Assembly: GCA_947494325.1 (NCBI GenBank)
Contig: CANLUS010000002.1
Coordinates: forward strand, 62,001-126,000
From: an uncultured Flavobacteriaceae bacterium
GTDB lineage: Bacteria; Bacteroidota; Bacteroidia; Flavobacteriales; Flavobacteriaceae
Direction: 5' to 3'
DNA length: 64,000 bases
Below the pieces are notes generated by a model. It had not been told where the DNA came from. It ran no database searches and worked only from the letters and a program-made list of their open reading frames with translations. The position numbers and the translations under genes were made by a program. This document shows positions 34,244 through 42,523 of this stretch, piece by piece (the first letter of the stretch is position 1; each line of letters opens with the position of its first letter).

Positions 34244-35584
34244 ATGTCTGATGATTTTGATTTACTAGAAACTAGTTCTAATGAAAAAACCGAAAAAGTT
34301 GATGTGAACTGGGGCAAAGCGATCGATACCATGAAGTCTAAACTTGCTCAAGAAGACGATCCGCAAACCCGTCAAAAAATCTTGAACGCCACCTTAGATG
34401 ATGTAGTTCATATGGCTGAAAAAGATAGAACAACTTTATTAGACGCCATTAAAGACTTAACTGATTACCAAGATGAAGTAGGAATCATTTTTGAGAAATT
34501 CTCTGCCTTAAATGCAGTTGAACAGAAAGTGATTGATGACGCCCAAAAAGCACTAGAAAGAGCCAAAGTAAAACTTGAAGATGCTGAAAATAAGCCAAAT
34601 ACATGGTGGAATAATCTTTGGGGGCGCAAAAGCAAAATTAAAAAGGCTCAAGTAGAACTTCAAGAGGCACAAAAAATACGCGATGGAGCCGATAACAAAG
34701 CAAAAGCAATGTTTCAAGAACGTATTGAGAGTGCAGATGTTCAAACCCTGTTGAGCGAGTTGTCTTACAAAAGCCAGGCGGCAGTAACGCGTTTAAAGAA
34801 TAGAGAAGTTGAAATAAAAGAAGTTGAAGATAAACTACAGACGGCGATTGTAGAAGCTACAAAAAATCATACGAAAGCTTTAGAAAAAAAGAAGGAAGTA
34901 GAATCTAAGTTAGAAGAGCAATATGCTTTGTTAAAGCAAGTGCGTCAAGAACTTGAAGAAATTGTAGACAAACAATCTGCTGCTTATGCAGAAGCAGTTG
35001 GTAAAGTTACCACAGTCGAACAAAAGGTAGAAGAATTAGAAGGACTAAAAAATGCGTACACAACGTTAGCTGCTAGTAAGGATAGCTTCGTTCACAAACA
35101 TAATTTAACAATTAAAGTTTTGACATCTTTACGTAGTAATTTACAAACGCACCGAGCAAAACTCAAGAGTGATACTGAAGAGCGTTTGAAATACTATGAT
35201 GGTTATGTCGTTGCCTTAAAAGCTAGAACTGATCAAGAATTTGCTGCTATTTTAGAACATTTAGGAGTGAAAACTGATGAACACATAGGAGAAACATTAG
35301 CATCTATGCATACTGCGAGTGCGAAGGCACGTCAAGAGATGATGGATAATATTCCGGTTCATGAAAAAGTGATGCAAGGGGTGTATGGTAGTTACGCTGA
35401 GGCTTTGCAAGAAATTAGAGCCAAAGATTCTGAGATTCAAAAGAACTTTGCAGATCGATATGGTATTGATATGAAAGAGATTTTTGAAGATTATTATAAG
35501 GCTGATGGTGCAGCTCCTTCTGAGGACGGAGATAAGCCAGCTTCAGATCCCAAACCAACATCGCACGACGATTTATTGTCTTAA
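34244..35584 (+). CDS. Long coiled-coil protein, first gene of the AAA+ module
   Basis: This 446-residue acidic protein is helical and dominated by coiled coil: roughly residues 90-130 (VEQKVIDDAQKALERAKVKL), 135-160 and 190-270 (KKKEVESKLEEQYALLKQVR and following heptads). It has a helical C-terminal domain (about 285-420) and a disordered acidic tail ending DDLLS. No signal peptide or membrane helix is present. Related Bacteroidota proteins may be auto-labelled microtubule-binding, which reflects coiled coil rather than a known role. It resembles a scaffold or filament-forming partner. It lies upstream of an AAA+ gene set, separated from it by 222 bp that contain an inverted repeat. Confidence 0.6.
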   Translation: MSDDFDLLETSSNEKTEKVDVNWGKAIDTMKSKLAQEDDPQTRQKILNATLDDVVHMAEKDRTTLLDAIKDLTDYQDEVGIIFEKFSALNAVEQKVIDDAQKALERAKVKLEDAENKPNTWWNNLWGRKSKIKKAQVELQEAQKIRDGADNKAKAMFQERIESADVQTLLSELSYKSQAAVTRLKNREVEIKEVEDKLQTAIVEATKNHTKALEKKKEVESKLEEQYALLKQVRQELEEIVDKQSAAYAEAVGKVTTVEQKVEELEGLKNAYTTLAASKDSFVHKHNLTIKVLTSLRSNLQTHRAKLKSDTEERLKYYDGYVVALKARTDQEFAAILEHLGVKTDEHIGETLASMHTASAKARQEMMDNIPVHEKVMQGVYGSYAEALQEIRAKDSEIQKNFADRYGIDMKEIFEDYYKADGAAPSEDGDKPASDPKPTSHDDLLS

Positions 35585-35806
35585 AGGTTGGGCGTTTCAA
35601 TTGCTGTATTGCTCATGATACTTTTCTCCAGAAAAATTGAGATTGTATAAAAATACAGCAATTGTCAGGCTTTGCGCTATATCTTTTCTTTTAGCATGTT
35701 AAACCCAGTCTGAACCTTTTTTAAAAAAGAAAAGGATGTCGCTGCAATCCTTAACGCACAAGGAATGAATTTTTTGTAAAACTTAAAATTGAATAGTTAA
35801 ACTAAT
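35585..35806. other. Intergenic region with long-arm inverted repeat inside the AAA+ module
   Basis: Perfect 13-base arms CAATTGCTGTATT (35598-35610) and AATACAGCAATTG (35652-35664) enclose 41 bases. A second, 14-bp perfect palindrome CTTTTTTAAAAAAG lies at 35716-35729. The stem could attenuate transcription between gene 1 and gene 2 or stabilise the upstream mRNA. No ORF fits here. Confidence 0.6.
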
Positions 35807-36871
35807 ATGTCTGTCAATCATATCGTAACGCCTTTAGATTCTGCAGTTTTAGATTCTAAAGAACAGTATGTTTTCTATCATAAGATGGTGGATTTTGCAC
35901 TCAAAGAATTGATTGTAAGAGTTCAGCAGAATAATTTATGTTCACAGCAAGAAGTTGTTTTTTTTAAGCAATATGCAGATTTGTTGTTATATTCTATTGA
36001 AGCCATGCGCATCAAATATATGTATGATGATGAAGATAACATGAAAGTCGATTTGACAGATTCTGGGTTTCCAAATTATCTAGAGTTACGTTATTTATAT
36101 AATGACTTGTCGTTACGTGATAATTATATTAACAAGTTAACAGATGTAAGTGTTTTGCAAGATCAATTTTTAGATCAATTATTGCGAAAAAAAGAACCAG
36201 TTAAATCTGATAAGCTTTTTCAAGCCGCATCTATAGTCTACTATACTTCGGTAGAACAACAGTATATTTTCAATCGTTTTGTTCAAGGAAAAATCATCGA
36301 TGCTCCCGAAGGTATAGAGGCAAAATTTATGACAAGTTGGAGTTTTTATGATGTTGCTCATAATAGACCCTTCATTTGTTTTATGTATTTCGATTATAAT
36401 GGAAAGACAACAAAGAAAGAAAAAGAGCTCATATATGATGTGCTAAAAACAACGGCTGACAGAGAAATGTCATTAGACACCATGGCGTATACCATCGATA
36501 GAAGGTTGCCTGATTTGATTCCTAAGCATATAAAAAGGGTAGATTTAGGCCCATTTCACAACATTTTTGCAAAGGATGAACATGTCATAACACATGCTAT
36601 TTTAGATAGTATCGCTAAAAAAGAAATTCCTATAGAATCATATGCTTTATCTCTAAAAGTTGATGAAGTATTTTCTGGAGATACTTTTGAAGAAGGAAGT
36701 TTTTTCTCGAAACAGGTACTGCAAAGGTGGAGCGATGTTGTACATCAGAAATACATACTGGCGCCGCATAGAATTATTCAATTACTTTATAACAAAGCAC
36801 CGGAAACATTGAATAAATTGGCGAAAGCACCTATTGAGCTCGCTGATCTTAAAATTGATAAATTAGACTAA
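35807..36871 (+). CDS. Conserved-looking protein of unknown function in AAA+ module
   Basis: This 354-residue soluble protein has no motif I recognise. Predicted helices cover the N-terminal 170 residues (for example EQYVFYHKMVDFALKELIVR); a mixed alpha/beta part follows (FYDVAHNRPFICFMYFDYNGK, then KTTADREMSLDTMAYTIDRRLPDLIPKHIKRVDLGPFHNIFAKD). No signal peptide, membrane segment or zinc cluster is seen. It ends 7 bp before the AAA+ ATPase gene, so it is very likely translated from the same mRNA. The tight spacing makes it a candidate subunit or substrate adaptor of that ATPase. Confidence 0.6.
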   Translation: MSVNHIVTPLDSAVLDSKEQYVFYHKMVDFALKELIVRVQQNNLCSQQEVVFFKQYADLLLYSIEAMRIKYMYDDEDNMKVDLTDSGFPNYLELRYLYNDLSLRDNYINKLTDVSVLQDQFLDQLLRKKEPVKSDKLFQAASIVYYTSVEQQYIFNRFVQGKIIDAPEGIEAKFMTSWSFYDVAHNRPFICFMYFDYNGKTTKKEKELIYDVLKTTADREMSLDTMAYTIDRRLPDLIPKHIKRVDLGPFHNIFAKDEHVITHAILDSIAKKEIPIESYALSLKVDEVFSGDTFEEGSFFSKQVLQRWSDVVHQKYILAPHRIIQLLYNKAPETLNKLAKAPIELADLKIDKLD

Positions 36872-36878
36872 ATTAACT

Positions 36879-38843
36879 ATGGAACATAACTCAACCTTTC
36901 CCATTAAACAAAGCGAACTTGATATGCTTCGCGATGAAGCTGCATCGTATTTAAAAAGTATACAATGGGAGCAAGGACAAAGAGCAAAGAATAAGGACAA
37001 AGATGCTAAAGATGAGTCTATTTTATTATATCTCTCAAGAGCCAATAATGGAAGTAGTGCCGCCAATATCACGTCAGTTTCTAAGACCATTTTAGCCTTA
37101 AAAAAGAGACTTTTGCCCGATTCTGTAGCAATTCCTATTTATCTGAACCAAACCTTATACGCAGTTCAGGAAGGAATTACCTTGGGTATATGGATTAAAG
37201 ATAGCTACTATGATGCTTCTGGTTTGTCAAGTTTAAGCGAGAATAAATCTGGTCTAGATACTACTGGAAAGAGAGAATTTGAAAGTAAAATGCATACTGC
37301 CACAGCATTTATGTTGTTTGCAACTGCTTATAATATCTTACACAATTTAAAAGAAATTGCTTCTGATGATTTAAGTGTCATGAAACAAAAGTTCGCCGGA
37401 ATTCCTGAAGTTTCTTTGTTAACTCCGTTAAAAGGAATTGGTTGTAGCCTGTTTTATTATGATAAATATTTAGGGCATCCCGACATTATTAAGAGCGATC
37501 AAGATGTAGTCGATTTTACAGTGGTGTATTTTGAAGCCTTACTGGATGAAATTCAATTGAGAAAGAGTTCTCTTGAATATACAGAGACGATTGTCGATAG
37601 AACTTATAAGTTAGAAAAATCAGAATTCGCTATTTCCGGATGGGACAATGTATTTGCTGGTGCAGCTAAGAGTGTTGAATTTAATAAAATTCAATTCGAA
37701 CAAATTGTTGGAAATAGAGATGCAAAACATTTTGCACGTCGTCTTACAGAACGTATGCTTAGTTATGATTTTACAGCAAAGAAAAATCCGTTTCAAGAAT
37801 TAGGAGGTTTTATGCCTGTTTTTATGGGATATGGTATTCCGGGAACTGGTAAAAGTATGCTAATTGCAGCTATCGCAACACGTCTAAAAGAACATTGTGA
37901 TAATTTAGAATTACCATTCTTATTTCACCCAATGCCAGATACATTGATTTCAACATTTCAAGGAGGGTCTTCCGAAAAAATGGTAGAATGGATGAAGCCT
38001 TTACAAGATCCAACAAAGTTAATTTTTGCACCTATTGATGATGCAGAAAATAATTTGCAAGAACGTACGGCTCAAGGAGTGTCAGCGGGTGTAAAAGAAG
38101 TGATTGGTGTTTTTCTAAGATATACAGAAGGCGCGTATGCCGTAAATTACGGAAATAGTTCCGTAGGATTATTTACCAATTTACCAGAAATGCTCGATAA
38201 AGCCGTTATTTCTAGAGTGCAAGGACGTTTTAAGATAGATGGAGCACGAACAGAACATGATTTCTTAGATCAAGATCACCTTTGGTGGCGTAAACTACAA
38301 GAAACAATGCCTGAATTTGTAAATATGCAAGGTCCCAACGACTATACATACTTGAGTAATCAAGGGTTGGCGAAAAGCATGGGTGAAATCTTAAATTTAA
38401 CAGAAAAGCCTACAGAAGAGCGTGTGTTGGAAACCTATGAAAAAGTAGAGAAAATGCATGCAACAAATGATCATATGTTTTATGCCAGTTTGTATAAAGA
38501 AATACAACAAATATTTCCATTTTTCTCTTCACGTGATGTTCGTAATATACAATCGGCAGTTTCATTGCGATTAACCGATTTTGATTTGGAGAAAGATTGG
38601 TTTGAAAATCCAGAAAAGTATTTCAAACAACCATATGAAACAAAGTTCAACATGCTGCAAGAATTAATGAAAGCCAATATGAAAGGATTGAACTTTTCAG
38701 ATATTAGAAGGCAAGAAGTCGTGCGATATTTAGATAATGTGGCGACCATTGCCGATACAGACTTTAAACGTAAAGTTGACGGTAGAGTAAATCAATTGAA
38801 TATTGATTTAGAAGCGAGAGAACAGTTTGAAAAGGGTAGATAG
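36879..38843 (+). CDS. AAA+ ATPase, core of an uncharacterised module
   Basis: This 654-residue protein has an N-terminal helical region of about 290 residues and one AAA+ module. Walker A is GIPGTGKS (residues 319-326). Walker B is in LIFAPIDDAE with Asp387-Asp388, where the usual DE is DD. A sensor-1-like stretch is SVGLFTNLPE. Arginine-finger candidates are Arg446 and Arg450 in ISRVQGRF. A C-terminal helical domain completes it. It is unlike FtsH, ClpX, Lon or MoxR in flanking parts: no protease, zinc or membrane segment is present. It probably remodels or moves a protein partner encoded nearby. It is preceded by the 35807 gene (7 bp) and followed by 38849 (5 bp). Confidence 0.75.
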   Translation: MEHNSTFPIKQSELDMLRDEAASYLKSIQWEQGQRAKNKDKDAKDESILLYLSRANNGSSAANITSVSKTILALKKRLLPDSVAIPIYLNQTLYAVQEGITLGIWIKDSYYDASGLSSLSENKSGLDTTGKREFESKMHTATAFMLFATAYNILHNLKEIASDDLSVMKQKFAGIPEVSLLTPLKGIGCSLFYYDKYLGHPDIIKSDQDVVDFTVVYFEALLDEIQLRKSSLEYTETIVDRTYKLEKSEFAISGWDNVFAGAAKSVEFNKIQFEQIVGNRDAKHFARRLTERMLSYDFTAKKNPFQELGGFMPVFMGYGIPGTGKSMLIAAIATRLKEHCDNLELPFLFHPMPDTLISTFQGGSSEKMVEWMKPLQDPTKLIFAPIDDAENNLQERTAQGVSAGVKEVIGVFLRYTEGAYAVNYGNSSVGLFTNLPEMLDKAVISRVQGRFKIDGARTEHDFLDQDHLWWRKLQETMPEFVNMQGPNDYTYLSNQGLAKSMGEILNLTEKPTEERVLETYEKVEKMHATNDHMFYASLYKEIQQIFPFFSSRDVRNIQSAVSLRLTDFDLEKDWFENPEKYFKQPYETKFNMLQELMKANMKGLNFSDIRRQEVVRYLDNVATIADTDFKRKVDGRVNQLNIDLEAREQFEKGR

Positions 38844-38848
38844 AAGCA

Positions 38849-40084
38849 ATGAAAAAACTGAGAGAGGCAAATTTGTACAGAGGAGAGTTGATTCCGATAA
38901 GCGGAAAGCTCGTTACACGGTATAACCAATGCTTGGAAAAGCTTGGATTTACCAAAACAAAACTCAAAACATTCTCAATCGATGGCATAGGATGGAGTCC
39001 CGAAATTGCTGAGGAAAAAGATGAGATGCATTATCTGAACAATGGTGAGGCCAATTTGCATGGTATCGTTATTACTCCACTACAGAAAGGGAAACCAGTT
39101 TATGTACCATTTCATTCATTCGATAGAGAAATGATGCGTGAGATCTTTAAGATTCACGGTGATAAGATCAATGATATTACACGTGATTCTGCCATATGTA
39201 TAGATTTCGATCAGGATATCGATGCGTTTTATGAACCATTAGATATTTTAAAATATGAGAAAATTAAAATAAGTTTTCATCTTATAAATAATTTAAGAAC
39301 GGCTCAAAAAGAACAATTAAAGTTAATTGAGAAGTTTAAACAAGGAACGAATTTTATTGACGAAAATTTGCATCAGCAATTATTAGAATCTGCTAAGAAA
39401 TATGGAGATTTGCGGGAAAGAGATATTACATTATCTGAAATACACTATACTGCAAATTCTTTTTATACAAAAGCCTTTGGTGGTATCTATGTGTTACGTG
39501 ATTTTGTAGCGCCAATTATTGTTTTTGAAAAAGAGAATTCATATAAGGAGGCAATTAAGGATACAGTACACGATGTAATGATTTATCATATCGAACAGCA
39601 AGAGTTAGTAAATCAATTACGTGATCATGTGATAATAGATTACGACTTAGATGCAGATGTGAAAACCAAGCGTTATGAACGCATAAAGAAATACATTTTC
39701 TCACAGCACTTAAAGAAAACCCAACATCCTATCAAAGATATTTTAAGTGATACGTTGCTTTTTAAAAGTTATCTTAATAAGATGGAATTAGCGTCACGAA
39801 AAAGAGTGATGAGTGTAGAACGTTACCTAGAAAAATCTGAAATCAGTAACGAATTTAAGATTGCAGATATTGTAGATCAGAAAATGTTTCATGCGCTTCA
39901 TAGTCCACATTCTTCTTTAGAGCCAAAACATCAAGATCTTATATGGAAGTTGTTGGTAAATGTTTCTCCAAAAGATATTCTATTTCTCTATTGGTATGAT
40001 AAAGAAGAATTTTATGAGCAGTTTAAAACATGGGATGAATCTATGAAGGATTGGGCAATTGAAACCATCCGTAACAATATTTAA
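38849..40084 (+). CDS. Conserved protein of the AAA+ module (possibly DUF6638)
   Basis: This 411-residue soluble protein has an N-terminal MKKLREANLYRGELIPISGKLV region, a distinct IDGIGWSPEIAEE segment, and a helical C-terminal half (about 200-411). I recall a Bacteroidota family with this opening catalogued as DUF6638, but this is from memory and needs checking. No catalytic motif, signal peptide or membrane helix is visible. The start is 5 bp after the ATPase stop, which fits translational coupling. It is probably a constant partner of the ATPase. Confidence 0.6.
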   Translation: MKKLREANLYRGELIPISGKLVTRYNQCLEKLGFTKTKLKTFSIDGIGWSPEIAEEKDEMHYLNNGEANLHGIVITPLQKGKPVYVPFHSFDREMMREIFKIHGDKINDITRDSAICIDFDQDIDAFYEPLDILKYEKIKISFHLINNLRTAQKEQLKLIEKFKQGTNFIDENLHQQLLESAKKYGDLRERDITLSEIHYTANSFYTKAFGGIYVLRDFVAPIIVFEKENSYKEAIKDTVHDVMIYHIEQQELVNQLRDHVIIDYDLDADVKTKRYERIKKYIFSQHLKKTQHPIKDILSDTLLFKSYLNKMELASRKRVMSVERYLEKSEISNEFKIADIVDQKMFHALHSPHSSLEPKHQDLIWKLLVNVSPKDILFLYWYDKEEFYEQFKTWDESMKDWAIETIRNNI

Positions 40085-40160
40085 AAATTATAGACTAATT
40101 TAGTAGGAAGAATTATATCCGTCTATTCCATTTCGGAAAGGGATTTAAAAATAAGAACTT

Positions 40161-40703
40161 ATGACACTAGAACTCATTGTATTTATTGCGACTATCTTGT
40201 TTGGAGCTTTATTGTATTGGAGAGAATCTAATGGAAATGGCTTATATCGATTTTTTAATAAAATTGTCAACTCGAAAGAATTGCAAATGAAAGCTGATGA
40301 CAAGACTGGTTTTGTTTATCAACAATCATTTTTATTGAGATTAGTTTTTATTTCATTTCTTTTTTTGGTGGGTATTGTAATTACACGTTTTTTAATACCT
40401 ATTGATTTGGCAACAATTTCTCTTTTCGGTTCCATGATTGCGGGAACAGTGTTGGGTACATATTTAGCAAATTTTATTTTTAAATCTTCTGAAGTGATTG
40501 ATGAGAAGAGTGATTCATTAGAAGATATTGTCCATGATACCATAGAGAAAGGAAAAGATTTTATTGAGGATATTAAAGGCAACGAAACTAAAATCGGTAG
40601 CTCGAAGTCTAAAGAGACTCCTATTGAGCCACTTCAAAAAGAAATTCCAAAAGAGCCAGAGAAAAGTGCACGTGAACGATTGAAAGATAAAGGTTTGTTA
40701 TAA
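40161..40703 (+). CDS. Membrane protein of the AAA+ module
   Basis: This 180-residue protein has three likely membrane helices (about 1-18, 54-75 and 82-108: LELIVFIATILFGALLYW, LRLVFISFLFLVGIVITRF, LFGSMIAGTVLGTYLANFIF). A cytoplasmic, charged tail of about 70 residues follows (EKGKDFIEDIKGNETKIGSS). No enzyme motif is seen. It lies 76 bp after the DUF6638-like gene and 78 bp before the next membrane protein, both on the same strand. It may anchor the ATPase complex at the inner membrane. Confidence 0.6.
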   Translation: MTLELIVFIATILFGALLYWRESNGNGLYRFFNKIVNSKELQMKADDKTGFVYQQSFLLRLVFISFLFLVGIVITRFLIPIDLATISLFGSMIAGTVLGTYLANFIFKSSEVIDEKSDSLEDIVHDTIEKGKDFIEDIKGNETKIGSSKSKETPIEPLQKEIPKEPEKSARERLKDKGLL

Positions 40704-40781
40704 TCAAGAAGTATTGCGAGTTTTCGGAACTACTGACGATATAGCTACTATTTCCAAAAAAAAATAAAACCAACTAATAAA

Positions 40782-42494
40782 ATGATCAAAAGATACTGGC
40801 AGAAAGGAACTAAACAGAAGACAATTACAATAGTACTGAGCTTATTACTAGTAATTATTCTATTTATTTTAAGGGATGATTACCAACCAGCGATTCTTTT
40901 TATTAGAAAATTCCTTTTTATCATTTTGTTGTGTGGGTTGATCACCTTTATTGCATTGAGAAGTTTTAGAAAATCTCCAAGCGCAGGTAGACGTTTAGGT
41001 ATTCTCGGCGGATTATTGCTGTTTTTTGCAATTGTATATGCGGTGGGCTGGCATTTTAAAATGTATGATTATATGAAAACATATAACGTATTTAATAATC
41101 TTAATAAACAAGAAATAGACGAACTGCCTTTGACACAAAATGAACGTATCCAGCCACTTCAAAACATTTCGTCTATGGCCAATGAATCTGTTGGAGAGAC
41201 CAAAGATGTTTCCTTACCACATTTAGTAAGAGTTGATGGACAAAATAAGTGGACCATGGCTATTCAGCCTACAGAAAAGTATATTTGGCAACGGATTAAT
41301 GATAATACCGAAGAAGTCTTTTCAGTATCCAGTACAACACCGTTCCCAAGGTTTTCAAGTGAAAATCGTATTTCAGTAACATTTTCAATTGGCGAATCCT
41401 TAAAATTCAGCAGAAACACCTACAATGCAGTGGTACAGCGGATGAACGTTTTACAATACTTGACAACTGAACCTGGAGATGTTTTTTATATGAAAAATGA
41501 CAGCGATCAATGGGTTCAAGTAGTAAGTTTGATCAAATGGAAAGGGTTCTTCTTTCCGTACCCAACTTTTGGAGGAGTGGTTGTAATCGAAAGAGGTGAG
41601 CATGATTTCAATGATTATGTGGAGCGAATTTTTCTGGGAAAAGGAACTTATATTGCTCCTGAGGAGATGACTAATCATCCCTATTTAATTGGTCAAAATA
41701 CGTTGTCTGAAAAAGTTTCAAGATTACAGGCTGAATCGTTAAAATTTTTAGGAGGATTTAGTGATCCGTTACCATGGAATATGGAAACTGCAGTTAAAAT
41801 TCCGGATTTACCAAAAGATCAAAATCAACAGCCCTATGTTACTGATTTTAATTTTACAGATACTGACATTGATGCATTTAATGGATTATATCATTGGTTT
41901 GGATTAGAACCTGTAGGGGAGGAACGAACAAGTTTGACGCATAGTGTTTTTGTGCCAGCAGACGGATCTAACAAGTTATACTATTATGATCATTCTTCTA
42001 AGAAAGAAGGGTATGCAGGAGTGTCTGCGATGCCATTGAAAGTAAAAGAATCAAAAAAAGAATATGATTGGGATGCCAATACGCCAGTCGAATTTAGACC
42101 TTATATCAAAGAAATCGCAGGAAGAAAACGATTGTTTTTTCTTGGGACCGTTTCAGCTATTAGTGATAGTAATTCAAGTCAGTTTGATGGTTCGGCAACG
42201 CCAGATTTAGCTTTAATTGATAGTGAGTATAGAGATGTGGTTTGGATTGATGCTAAGCATCCAAGTCGATGGGATAAATTAGTGTATGATCAGTTAAACG
42301 AAGCTTGGAGATCAAGTGAAAATATAGATTTTTATTATAAAGATGAGGGGAATTTAAAAGATACCTCCCAAGCACAATTGGATTCTGTCGGAGAAATTTC
42401 CGAAATAGATCAAGAAACAGCGGCAATCAATGAATGGCAACGTAAGATTGATTCGGTTAAAAAACTAAAAACAAAAGATTCACTCAAACAATAA
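40782..42494 (+). CDS. Large membrane-anchored protein of the AAA+ module
   Basis: This 570-residue protein has three N-terminal membrane helices (about 14-32, 38-63 and 73-94). A large domain of about 450 residues follows, outside the membrane or in the cytoplasm, with mixed alpha/beta character (for example YIWQRINDNTEEVFSVSST, KWKGFFFPYPTFGGVVVIE, DLALIDSEYRDVVWIDAKHP). The C-terminal tail is Lys/Asp-rich. I do not recognise the family. The last gene of the set is closed by a clear terminator at 42498-42523, which marks the end of the module. It could be the membrane receptor for the complex. Confidence 0.6.
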   Translation: MIKRYWQKGTKQKTITIVLSLLLVIILFILRDDYQPAILFIRKFLFIILLCGLITFIALRSFRKSPSAGRRLGILGGLLLFFAIVYAVGWHFKMYDYMKTYNVFNNLNKQEIDELPLTQNERIQPLQNISSMANESVGETKDVSLPHLVRVDGQNKWTMAIQPTEKYIWQRINDNTEEVFSVSSTTPFPRFSSENRISVTFSIGESLKFSRNTYNAVVQRMNVLQYLTTEPGDVFYMKNDSDQWVQVVSLIKWKGFFFPYPTFGGVVVIERGEHDFNDYVERIFLGKGTYIAPEEMTNHPYLIGQNTLSEKVSRLQAESLKFLGGFSDPLPWNMETAVKIPDLPKDQNQQPYVTDFNFTDTDIDAFNGLYHWFGLEPVGEERTSLTHSVFVPADGSNKLYYYDHSSKKEGYAGVSAMPLKVKESKKEYDWDANTPVEFRPYIKEIAGRKRLFFLGTVSAISDSNSSQFDGSATPDLALIDSEYRDVVWIDAKHPSRWDKLVYDQLNEAWRSSENIDFYYKDEGNLKDTSQAQLDSVGEISEIDQETAAINEWQRKIDSVKKLKTKDSLKQ

Positions 42495-42497
42495 TTT

Positions 42498-42523
42498 AAA
42501 GCTCCTTATTTGGAGCTTTTTTT
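42498..42523 (+). terminator. Intrinsic terminator closing the AAA+ module
   Basis: The 8-bp stem AAAGCTCC (42498-42505) / GGAGCTTT (42512-42519) has a 6-base loop and is followed by T residues to 42523. Confidence 0.9.

Follow-up and report, generated by a model that had tools for sequence, protein, structure and literature searches.

In a 64,000-nucleotide stretch of DNA from an uncultured Flavobacteriaceae bacterium (the window; contig CANLUS010000002.1, positions 62,001 to 126,000) we describe a module of six genes, here called A to F, which appears to encode an AAA remodelling machine of a known kind, with partners of unknown function, and which appears to be unstudied. The genes code, in order, for a coiled-coil protein, a soluble protein, an AAA ATPase, a member of a family named as a domain of unknown function (DUF6638) and two membrane proteins. 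Comparative analysis indicates that the six window genes are genuine and together make up a functional unit, and the quartet A-B-C-D, which recurs in proteobacteria, constitutes one such unit as firmly as comparative genomics allows. We further propose, with about even confidence, that A is the target of the ATPase C, that B and D serve as adaptors, and that this takes place at a membrane site provided by E/F, DUF1523 or DUF2333.

Linkage of the gene families in flavobacteria and proteobacteria

Among 120 sampled genomes of the Flavobacteriaceae, the family of the window, A, C and D are present together in the identical 40 genomes and absent together from the remainder, the count for C having been lowered from 41 to 40 by the removal of one genome (G002) with a 73-residue AAA match (E 3.3e-4). 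We assembled 41 flavobacterial loci, comprising the window together with loci from 37 of the other 39 genomes that carry C and from three further genomes identified by way of D, and in 38 of these all six genes lie in the order A-B-C-D-E-F. One of the three exceptions (L077) lies near where its contig stops, A being found on a different contig; in the second (G207) a distance of about 10 kb, occupied by other genes, separates D-E-F from C; and in the third (G087) D-E lie 0.75 Mb away from A-B-C, with A, C and D all retained nonetheless. The neighbourhood comparison called for in the preliminary description of this locus accordingly finds the families linked and not scattered. The proteins of the flavobacterial loci have median identities to those of the window of 86% for A, 84% for C, 69% for B and 67% for D, and at the B-C, C-D and D-E junctions gene ends overlap or abut in several loci (-1 to -4 bp).

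The quartet extends well beyond Bacteroidota. Among records submitted as plasmids, from Vibrio, Sinorhizobium, Shinella and Rhizobium, tblastn recovered C in 10 and D in 6, several of these records being very large, including a Sinorhizobium meliloti record of 3.72 Mb labelled pSymB, which from its size we take to be probably the chromosome. The S. meliloti record and two from Vibrio parahaemolyticus carry A-B-C-D in order, and profiles built from the flavobacterial proteins find the Vibrio copies of A (E 1.9e-8 and 1.1e-7) and B (7.5e-20 and 9.8e-20). A scan of GTDB genome contigs yielded 567 confirmed relatives, the best 80 of which all belong to alphaproteobacteria, judging from the record titles; with 80 of 567 retained, it is uninformative that other groups are missing from the list. 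These 80, together with six plasmid loci and less one locus in which C is cut off (L111), make up 85 proteobacterial loci with C, and in 79 of them the quartet is collinear on one strand in the order A-B-C-D; in five of the remaining six the stretch or contig ends on the side of the missing gene. In a sample of 398 Pseudomonadota genomes C occurs in 26 and A in 29, all 26 holders of C also carrying A. This sample was centred on a genome (G392) that was chosen as a holder of C and is counted among the 26, and the phylum sampled is Pseudomonadota since G392 is the Hellea genome of locus L141. The proteobacterial proteins are 21-27% (A), 17-23% (B), 23-27% (C) and 15-24% (D) identical to those of the window, with medians across the quartet of 20-24%.

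A conserved, presumably ATP-driven machine would thus be present in both samples, in a quartet spanning marine flavobacteria, roseobacters, rhizobia and vibrios, and its carriers include genera open to culture and study such as Sinorhizobium and Ruegeria. The preliminary description had singled out the locus as a candidate for an uncharacterised system, which accords with linked families that match no known complex in the libraries searched.

The module is patchily distributed within the genus of the window (4 of 13 genomes sampled, its own counted), as might be expected of an anti-phage defence system, and the AAA domain of C is weakly similar to IetA of the IetAS system (PADLOC E 4e-5, 21.2 bits), and C also weakly matches a phage family of unknown function (phrog_3757, E 2.9e-6). 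We nevertheless consider a role in defence very improbable. The locus sits amid housekeeping genes, with identical flanks in three genomes of the same genus, and its genes are under purifying selection, with dN/dS of 0.005-0.058 against two same-genus loci in the 10 of 12 gene pairs that were computable, ratios that are rough because dS exceeds 1 in seven of those ten. Further, tblastn with C returned no match at 1e-5 in 50,697 phage records, and on the same result we reject a phage origin of C. Membership of IetAS is likewise rejected: the NCBIfam IetA model gives C 17.9 bits against a curated cut-off of 510, and IetS, presumably the partner of IetA, is not among the PADLOC matches of A-F.

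The ATPase and its soluble partners

C scores above the cut-off of the AAA family PF00004 (34.6 versus 21.2 bits), and a profile search of the PDB places it closest to a VCP-like ATPase (E 2e-9), with Rpt and Vps4 also matched; the part of about 260-300 residues that precedes the AAA domain has no Pfam match over its cut-off. Like the classic AAA ATPases (VCP-like/p97, Rpt, Vps4 and Pch2), C has a single AAA domain with a Walker A motif, a pore-loop aromatic residue, a sensor-1 asparagine and arginines in a stretch resembling the second region of homology (SRH). The pore-loop stretch, [YF]QG[KG]S, holds tyrosine in 85 and phenylalanine in 40 copies and aligns with YYGQS of the VCP-like ATPase. 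C differs from the classic enzymes in its unrelated N-terminal part, in its partners A, B and D, and in a Walker B motif that ends in DD and not in DE with its catalytic glutamate; an invariant glutamate, E407, lies 19 residues past the DD. As all 125 homologues share the DD, it is a family trait and not a sequencing error, and given the family score and the other motifs we keep C among the AAA proteins, its Walker B being unusual. The full Walker A, the DD Walker B and the arginine-finger candidates noted in the preliminary description are all present and invariant across these homologues, and from its motifs C is likely to be an active threading ATPase.

A, for which homologues are present in 123 loci (the window counted), has no Pfam family over its cut-off. 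An AlphaFold2 model of the window protein from a 43-row alignment is all helix (mean predicted local distance difference test score, pLDDT, 66.6; predicted template modelling score, pTM, 0.45), and among the 50 of 623 PDB fold matches listed for it most are generic coiled coils and long-helix proteins, with a best E of 5.9e-3; a sequence-profile search of the PDB gave nothing credible (best E 0.015). An AAA ATPase gene beside a gene for an all-helical protein in a membrane context is also characteristic of the ESCRT-III/Vps4 and PspA systems, and C has Vps4 among its PDB profile matches, raising the prospect of a bacterial ESCRT-III/Vps4-like membrane remodeller with A as its polymer. We regard this as quite improbable, as a Pfam search with E up to 1 gives no MIT domain in C, and neither ESCRT-III nor PspA is among the 50 of 623 fold matches listed for the weak model of A. 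To our knowledge, B and D have no counterpart in either system. In the material available to us from a study covering the neighbourhoods of Vps4 and PspA this quartet is not shown (PMC11237479).

A further comparison is with TelA (PF05816), a long helical cytoplasmic protein of a length similar to that of A, which would place the module among tellurite/Ter-type stress systems. This resemblance has no counterpart in the searches: A lacks credible profile similarity to TelA, which is absent from the Pfam matches of the window protein at E up to 1 and from the 25 of 32 families listed for 30 A proteins; hhalign of A against seven TelA sequences gives a probability of 6.7%, and TelA occurs in 1 of 40 relatives. 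We therefore treat the kinship of A with TelA as unsupported and a Ter-type system as scarcely credible.

B has no Pfam match whatsoever, and D scores 118.5 bits against the DUF6638 gathering cut-off of 27; sequence-profile searches of the PDB returned nothing credible for either (best E 0.0079 for B and 0.18 for D). Kinship of B with D or with C is rejected, with hhalign probabilities of 0.3 and 0.2. The D homologue of locus L100, about 21% identical to D of the window, was modelled with confidence from 62 rows (mean pLDDT 88.1, pTM 0.84). Foldseek with this model gave a best PDB match at E 0.7 with a query template modelling score of 0.08 and a best match among viral structures at E 0.31, with none at E <= 0.001 in either search. 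On the strength of a confident model without matches, D looks, within the reach of Foldseek, like a fold that the PDB does not represent. To us the invariant residues of B and D look structural rather than catalytic. Neither a mention of DUF6638 in the literature searched nor the module in the titles and abstract openings returned by our literature searches was encountered, subscription literature lying outside their scope. The partners of C are thus either unnamed or known by DUF numbers, one of them with a confidently predicted fold.

Membrane partners, reduced loci and a proposed mechanism

In a hydropathy scan with a threshold of 1.8, membrane helices are predicted in none of 123 copies of A, none of 124 of B, one of 125 of C and one of 121 of D; with a threshold of 1.6, E and F each have two to three in all 40 copies. 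Neither E nor F has a Pfam or NCBIfam match over its cut-off, E having a sub-threshold NCBIfam match to TIGR04561 (22.2 bits against a cut-off of 30). Profiles of E and F match no open reading frame in 86 proteobacterial loci. In the 81 proteobacterial loci with both C and D, one cluster follows D in 61 loci (its representative being DUF1523 (PF07509) with two membrane helices); 56 loci have an 88-residue two-helix protein there and 16 a third cluster (representative DUF2333, PF10095), these names resting on a single scanned representative per cluster. Both names, like DUF6638 (PF20343), come without a function. We therefore describe the module, from these gene contexts, as a four-gene core with an exchangeable membrane part that differs between lineages. 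The six-gene set of the preliminary description is not a fixed one: it holds as a unit in flavobacteria, and in alphaproteobacteria the quartet comes with other membrane proteins. The membrane association that the preliminary description suggested gains indirect support from the helices of E and F and from the membrane proteins that follow the alphaproteobacterial quartets.

Membrane proteins of differing families after the quartet could also point to a MoxR-like assembly chaperone, in which C, B and D would load a cofactor into a membrane complex of E/F or their counterparts, or bring that complex to maturity. We find this improbable: C matches classic AAA models, Pfam gives no VWA-domain match in A-F, and the supposed clients differ between lineages, since E and F have no match in the proteobacterial loci.

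Certain features of A are confined to flavobacteria in parallel with E and F. A [DE]FDLLE motif near its N terminus is present in 39 of 39 flavobacterial and none of 84 proteobacterial copies, and an acidic-LL tail in 38 of 39 and none of 84. As these motifs and the conserved tail of E are both flavobacterial, one may be a docking site for the other, or they may dock onto F.

Three Pseudomonadota genomes (G437, G501 and G647) account for the difference between the counts of A and C. In each, A lies in a rhizobial syntenic arrangement of thymidine kinase, A, DUF2333 and formate-tetrahydrofolate ligase; tblastn with the S. meliloti proteins finds A at 30-32% and DUF2333 at 60-61% identity, and B, C and D were not found in the 17-19 kb around these loci. 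The three A proteins share a 22-column alignment gap at residues 273-294 of S. meliloti A, within the part of the family alignment where conservation is highest (0.86-0.90, blocks 221-300). At loci without B-C-D, A therefore stays with a membrane protein and is there without one defined segment. The simplest reading of a gap in A together with the loss of B-C-D is that the stretch is acted upon by B, C or D, and part of that reading, as far as such gene contents can tell, would be a second role of A together with the membrane protein. These natural variants suggest a direct route to the contact between motor and partner. On Rhizobium leguminosarum pSK03 a like layout is seen by annotation alone, the gene at the position of A being an uncompared 'hypothetical protein'.

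The reading in which C acts on A best accommodates the co-retention of the genes, the fact that A and C are equally conserved, and the gap of 22 residues. We envisage A-F as a single machine in which C would form a hexameric unfoldase, threading a polypeptide through a pore lined with the conserved aromatic loop. A would be its own partner or substrate, held at the inner membrane by docking to membrane proteins that vary with the lineage (E/F in the window, DUF1523 or DUF2333 in others), and B and D would be adaptors devoted to linking A with C. The motor would grip the best-conserved region of A, approximately residues 306-345 in the window, and pull apart or reshape assemblies of A, such that the membrane-bound part of the system cycles. 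Its purpose might be envelope upkeep, which is a guess.

Alternatively, C could unfold other proteins, in quality control or delivery to a protease, with A as a scaffold or anchor and B and D as substrate-recognizing adaptors. A classic AAA motor nearest to VCP-like, proteasomal and Vps4 ATPases, accompanied by two conserved partners whose invariant residues do not look catalytic, would suit such a role. We consider it unlikely, however, as no protease family is found among the Pfam matches of A-F, A is conserved as well as C, and the loss of B-C-D coincides with the gap in A.

Several observations weigh against the proposal that C acts on A at a membrane site. The DD in place of DE could mean slow hydrolysis or a switch and not a strong unfoldase, and the model of A is weak. 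The three A proteins of the reduced loci have diverged throughout, with block identities to S. meliloti A of 0.08-0.57, compared with 0.64-0.98 for 14 intact rhizobial A proteins (a 2-residue end block excluded); the gap, which comes from one alignment, is hence not their sole change and may reflect a single event in one lineage. With regard to linkage, one proteobacterial locus (L097) carries A-B-C with no D in 9 kb downstream, the sole exception without a stretch end, and F was not seen in either of the two G087 stretches, the rest of that genome not having been searched for it. As to the membrane, besides the absence of E and F from the proteobacterial loci, in Vibrio no helix is predicted for either of the two genes immediately upstream of A, and the gene after D is mfd; in view of this Vibrio context and the limitation of E/F to flavobacteria, membrane attachment is not universal on present evidence. 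DUF2333 is also found without the quartet nearby. Two such DUF2333 genes, in Skermanella and on a Rhodobacteraceae plasmid (L206 and L207), have sigma-70/anti-sigma pairs close by.

Layout of the window locus and the A-B gap

The observations in the preliminary description of the locus are confirmed: the six genes lie on one strand, each with an ATG start, and the genes and the closing terminator are where it had placed them (Table 1); the assignment of D to DUF6638 and the presence of a Flavo-1 RNA in the A-B gap are additions. Its spacing of 5-7 bp holds for B-C-D (gaps of 7 and 5 bp) and is restricted to these genes, as A-B, D-E and E-F are separated by 222, 76 and 78 bp. Housekeeping genes lie on either side, among them a carboxyltransferase, an alanine dehydrogenase/PNT-type gene, an FMN reductase, a CDGSH/4Fe-4S protein and a gene that we take to be YebC-like.

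Table 1. Features of the module, in window coordinates.
Feature	Position	Strand	Basis
Gene A, all-helical coiled-coil protein, 446 aa	34244..35584	+	Open reading frame, AlphaFold2 model, homologue search
A residues 321-342, equivalent of the 22 missing residues, candidate ATPase contact	35204..35269	+	Placed by eye from alignment
Inverted repeat, 13-bp arms, 41-nt loop, 13 nt after the A stop	35598..35664	+	Hairpin search
Flavo-1 RNA (RF01705), antisense to operon	35659..35764	-	Rfam 52.2 bits, gathering 42
Gene B, soluble protein, presumed adaptor, 354 aa	35807..36871	+	Open reading frame; no Pfam match
Gene C, classic AAA ATPase, 654 aa	36879..38843	+	PF00004 and PDB profile search
Walker A GYGIPGTGKS, C residues 317-326	37827..37856	+	GxGxPGTGK[ST] in 125/125
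Pore-loop-1-like ISTFQGGS, C residues 357-364	37947..37970	+	Aromatic Y/F in 125/125
Walker B FAPIDD, C residues 383-388	38025..38042	+	DD in 125/125
Sensor-1 N434 and SRH-like stretch with R446, R450	38178..38231	+	Each in 125/125
Gene D, DUF6638 (PF20343), 411 aa	38849..40084	+	Pfam
Gene E, membrane protein, 180 aa	40161..40703	+	Hydropathy; homologues in flavobacterial loci only
E C-terminal tail KSARERLKDKG	40662..40694	+	KSARxRLKDKG exact in 35/40 copies
Gene F, three N-terminal membrane helices and large conserved soluble domain, 570 aa	40782..42494	+	Homologues in flavobacterial loci only
Intrinsic terminator	42498..42519	+	8-pair stem with 4 G-C pairs, then T run

A hairpin with z < -2 directly follows A in 20 of 39 flavobacterial loci, compared with 5 of 39 for B and, out of 40 loci each, 1, 4, 5 and 5 for C, D, E and F, respectively. 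Proteobacteria show no such bias, as their figure after A (10 of 84) is not above those after B (18 of 85) and C (13 of 85), that after D being 4 of 81. Part of the A-B gap in the window matches Flavo-1, and an Rfam scan of 43 loci and the window region (816,385 bases, including 42 A-B gaps) gave seven matches over the gathering score, all seven inside an A-B gap, with 35 of the 42 gaps having none. The gaps concerned are those of the window and of L174, L041, L042, L054, L055 and L058, which span six genera, as the window and L174 share one genus; by Rfam strand six are antisense to the operon and that of L042 is sense. In a loose pattern scan for Flavo-1 (<= 4 errors), 15 of 28 matches fell in A-B gaps, which make up 8,501 of 871,484 bases, and the genome of the window has two Flavo-1 copies in all. 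The portions we consulted list Flavo-1 without a function in the 2010 discovery paper (PMC2864571) and in a review table (PMC9029176), and a transcriptome study, in the part available to us, finds matches sense or antisense to transcribed regions alike and assigns no function (PMC9723704). The recurrent position in the A-B gap therefore offers a handle on an orphan RNA family of unknown function.

Combining these elements, one could picture a categorically new cytoskeleton-like system common to both phyla, in which a dedicated AAA motor, distinguished by its DD Walker B, drives polymers of A through cycles by way of two adaptors, one with a fold not in the PDB, with A docked to the membrane protein of the lineage and, in flavobacteria, the ratio of A to the remaining products set by an RNA hairpin in the A-B gap (Flavo-1 or similar); we put this forward as a possibility and hold it doubtful.

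The C-D interval is variable in gene content. In 16 of the 39 flavobacterial loci C and D are separated by a NUDIX hydrolase gene (for example L041-L050, with a Pfam NUDIX match in L042), which the window lacks. In L051, L052 and L057 a protein of about 213 residues bearing hydrophobic stretches takes its place, with an amidohydrolase also present in L052. In S. meliloti Ak57 (L080, 10851-12596) the same interval holds a gene with an endonuclease domain and an ISRm16 transposase gene.

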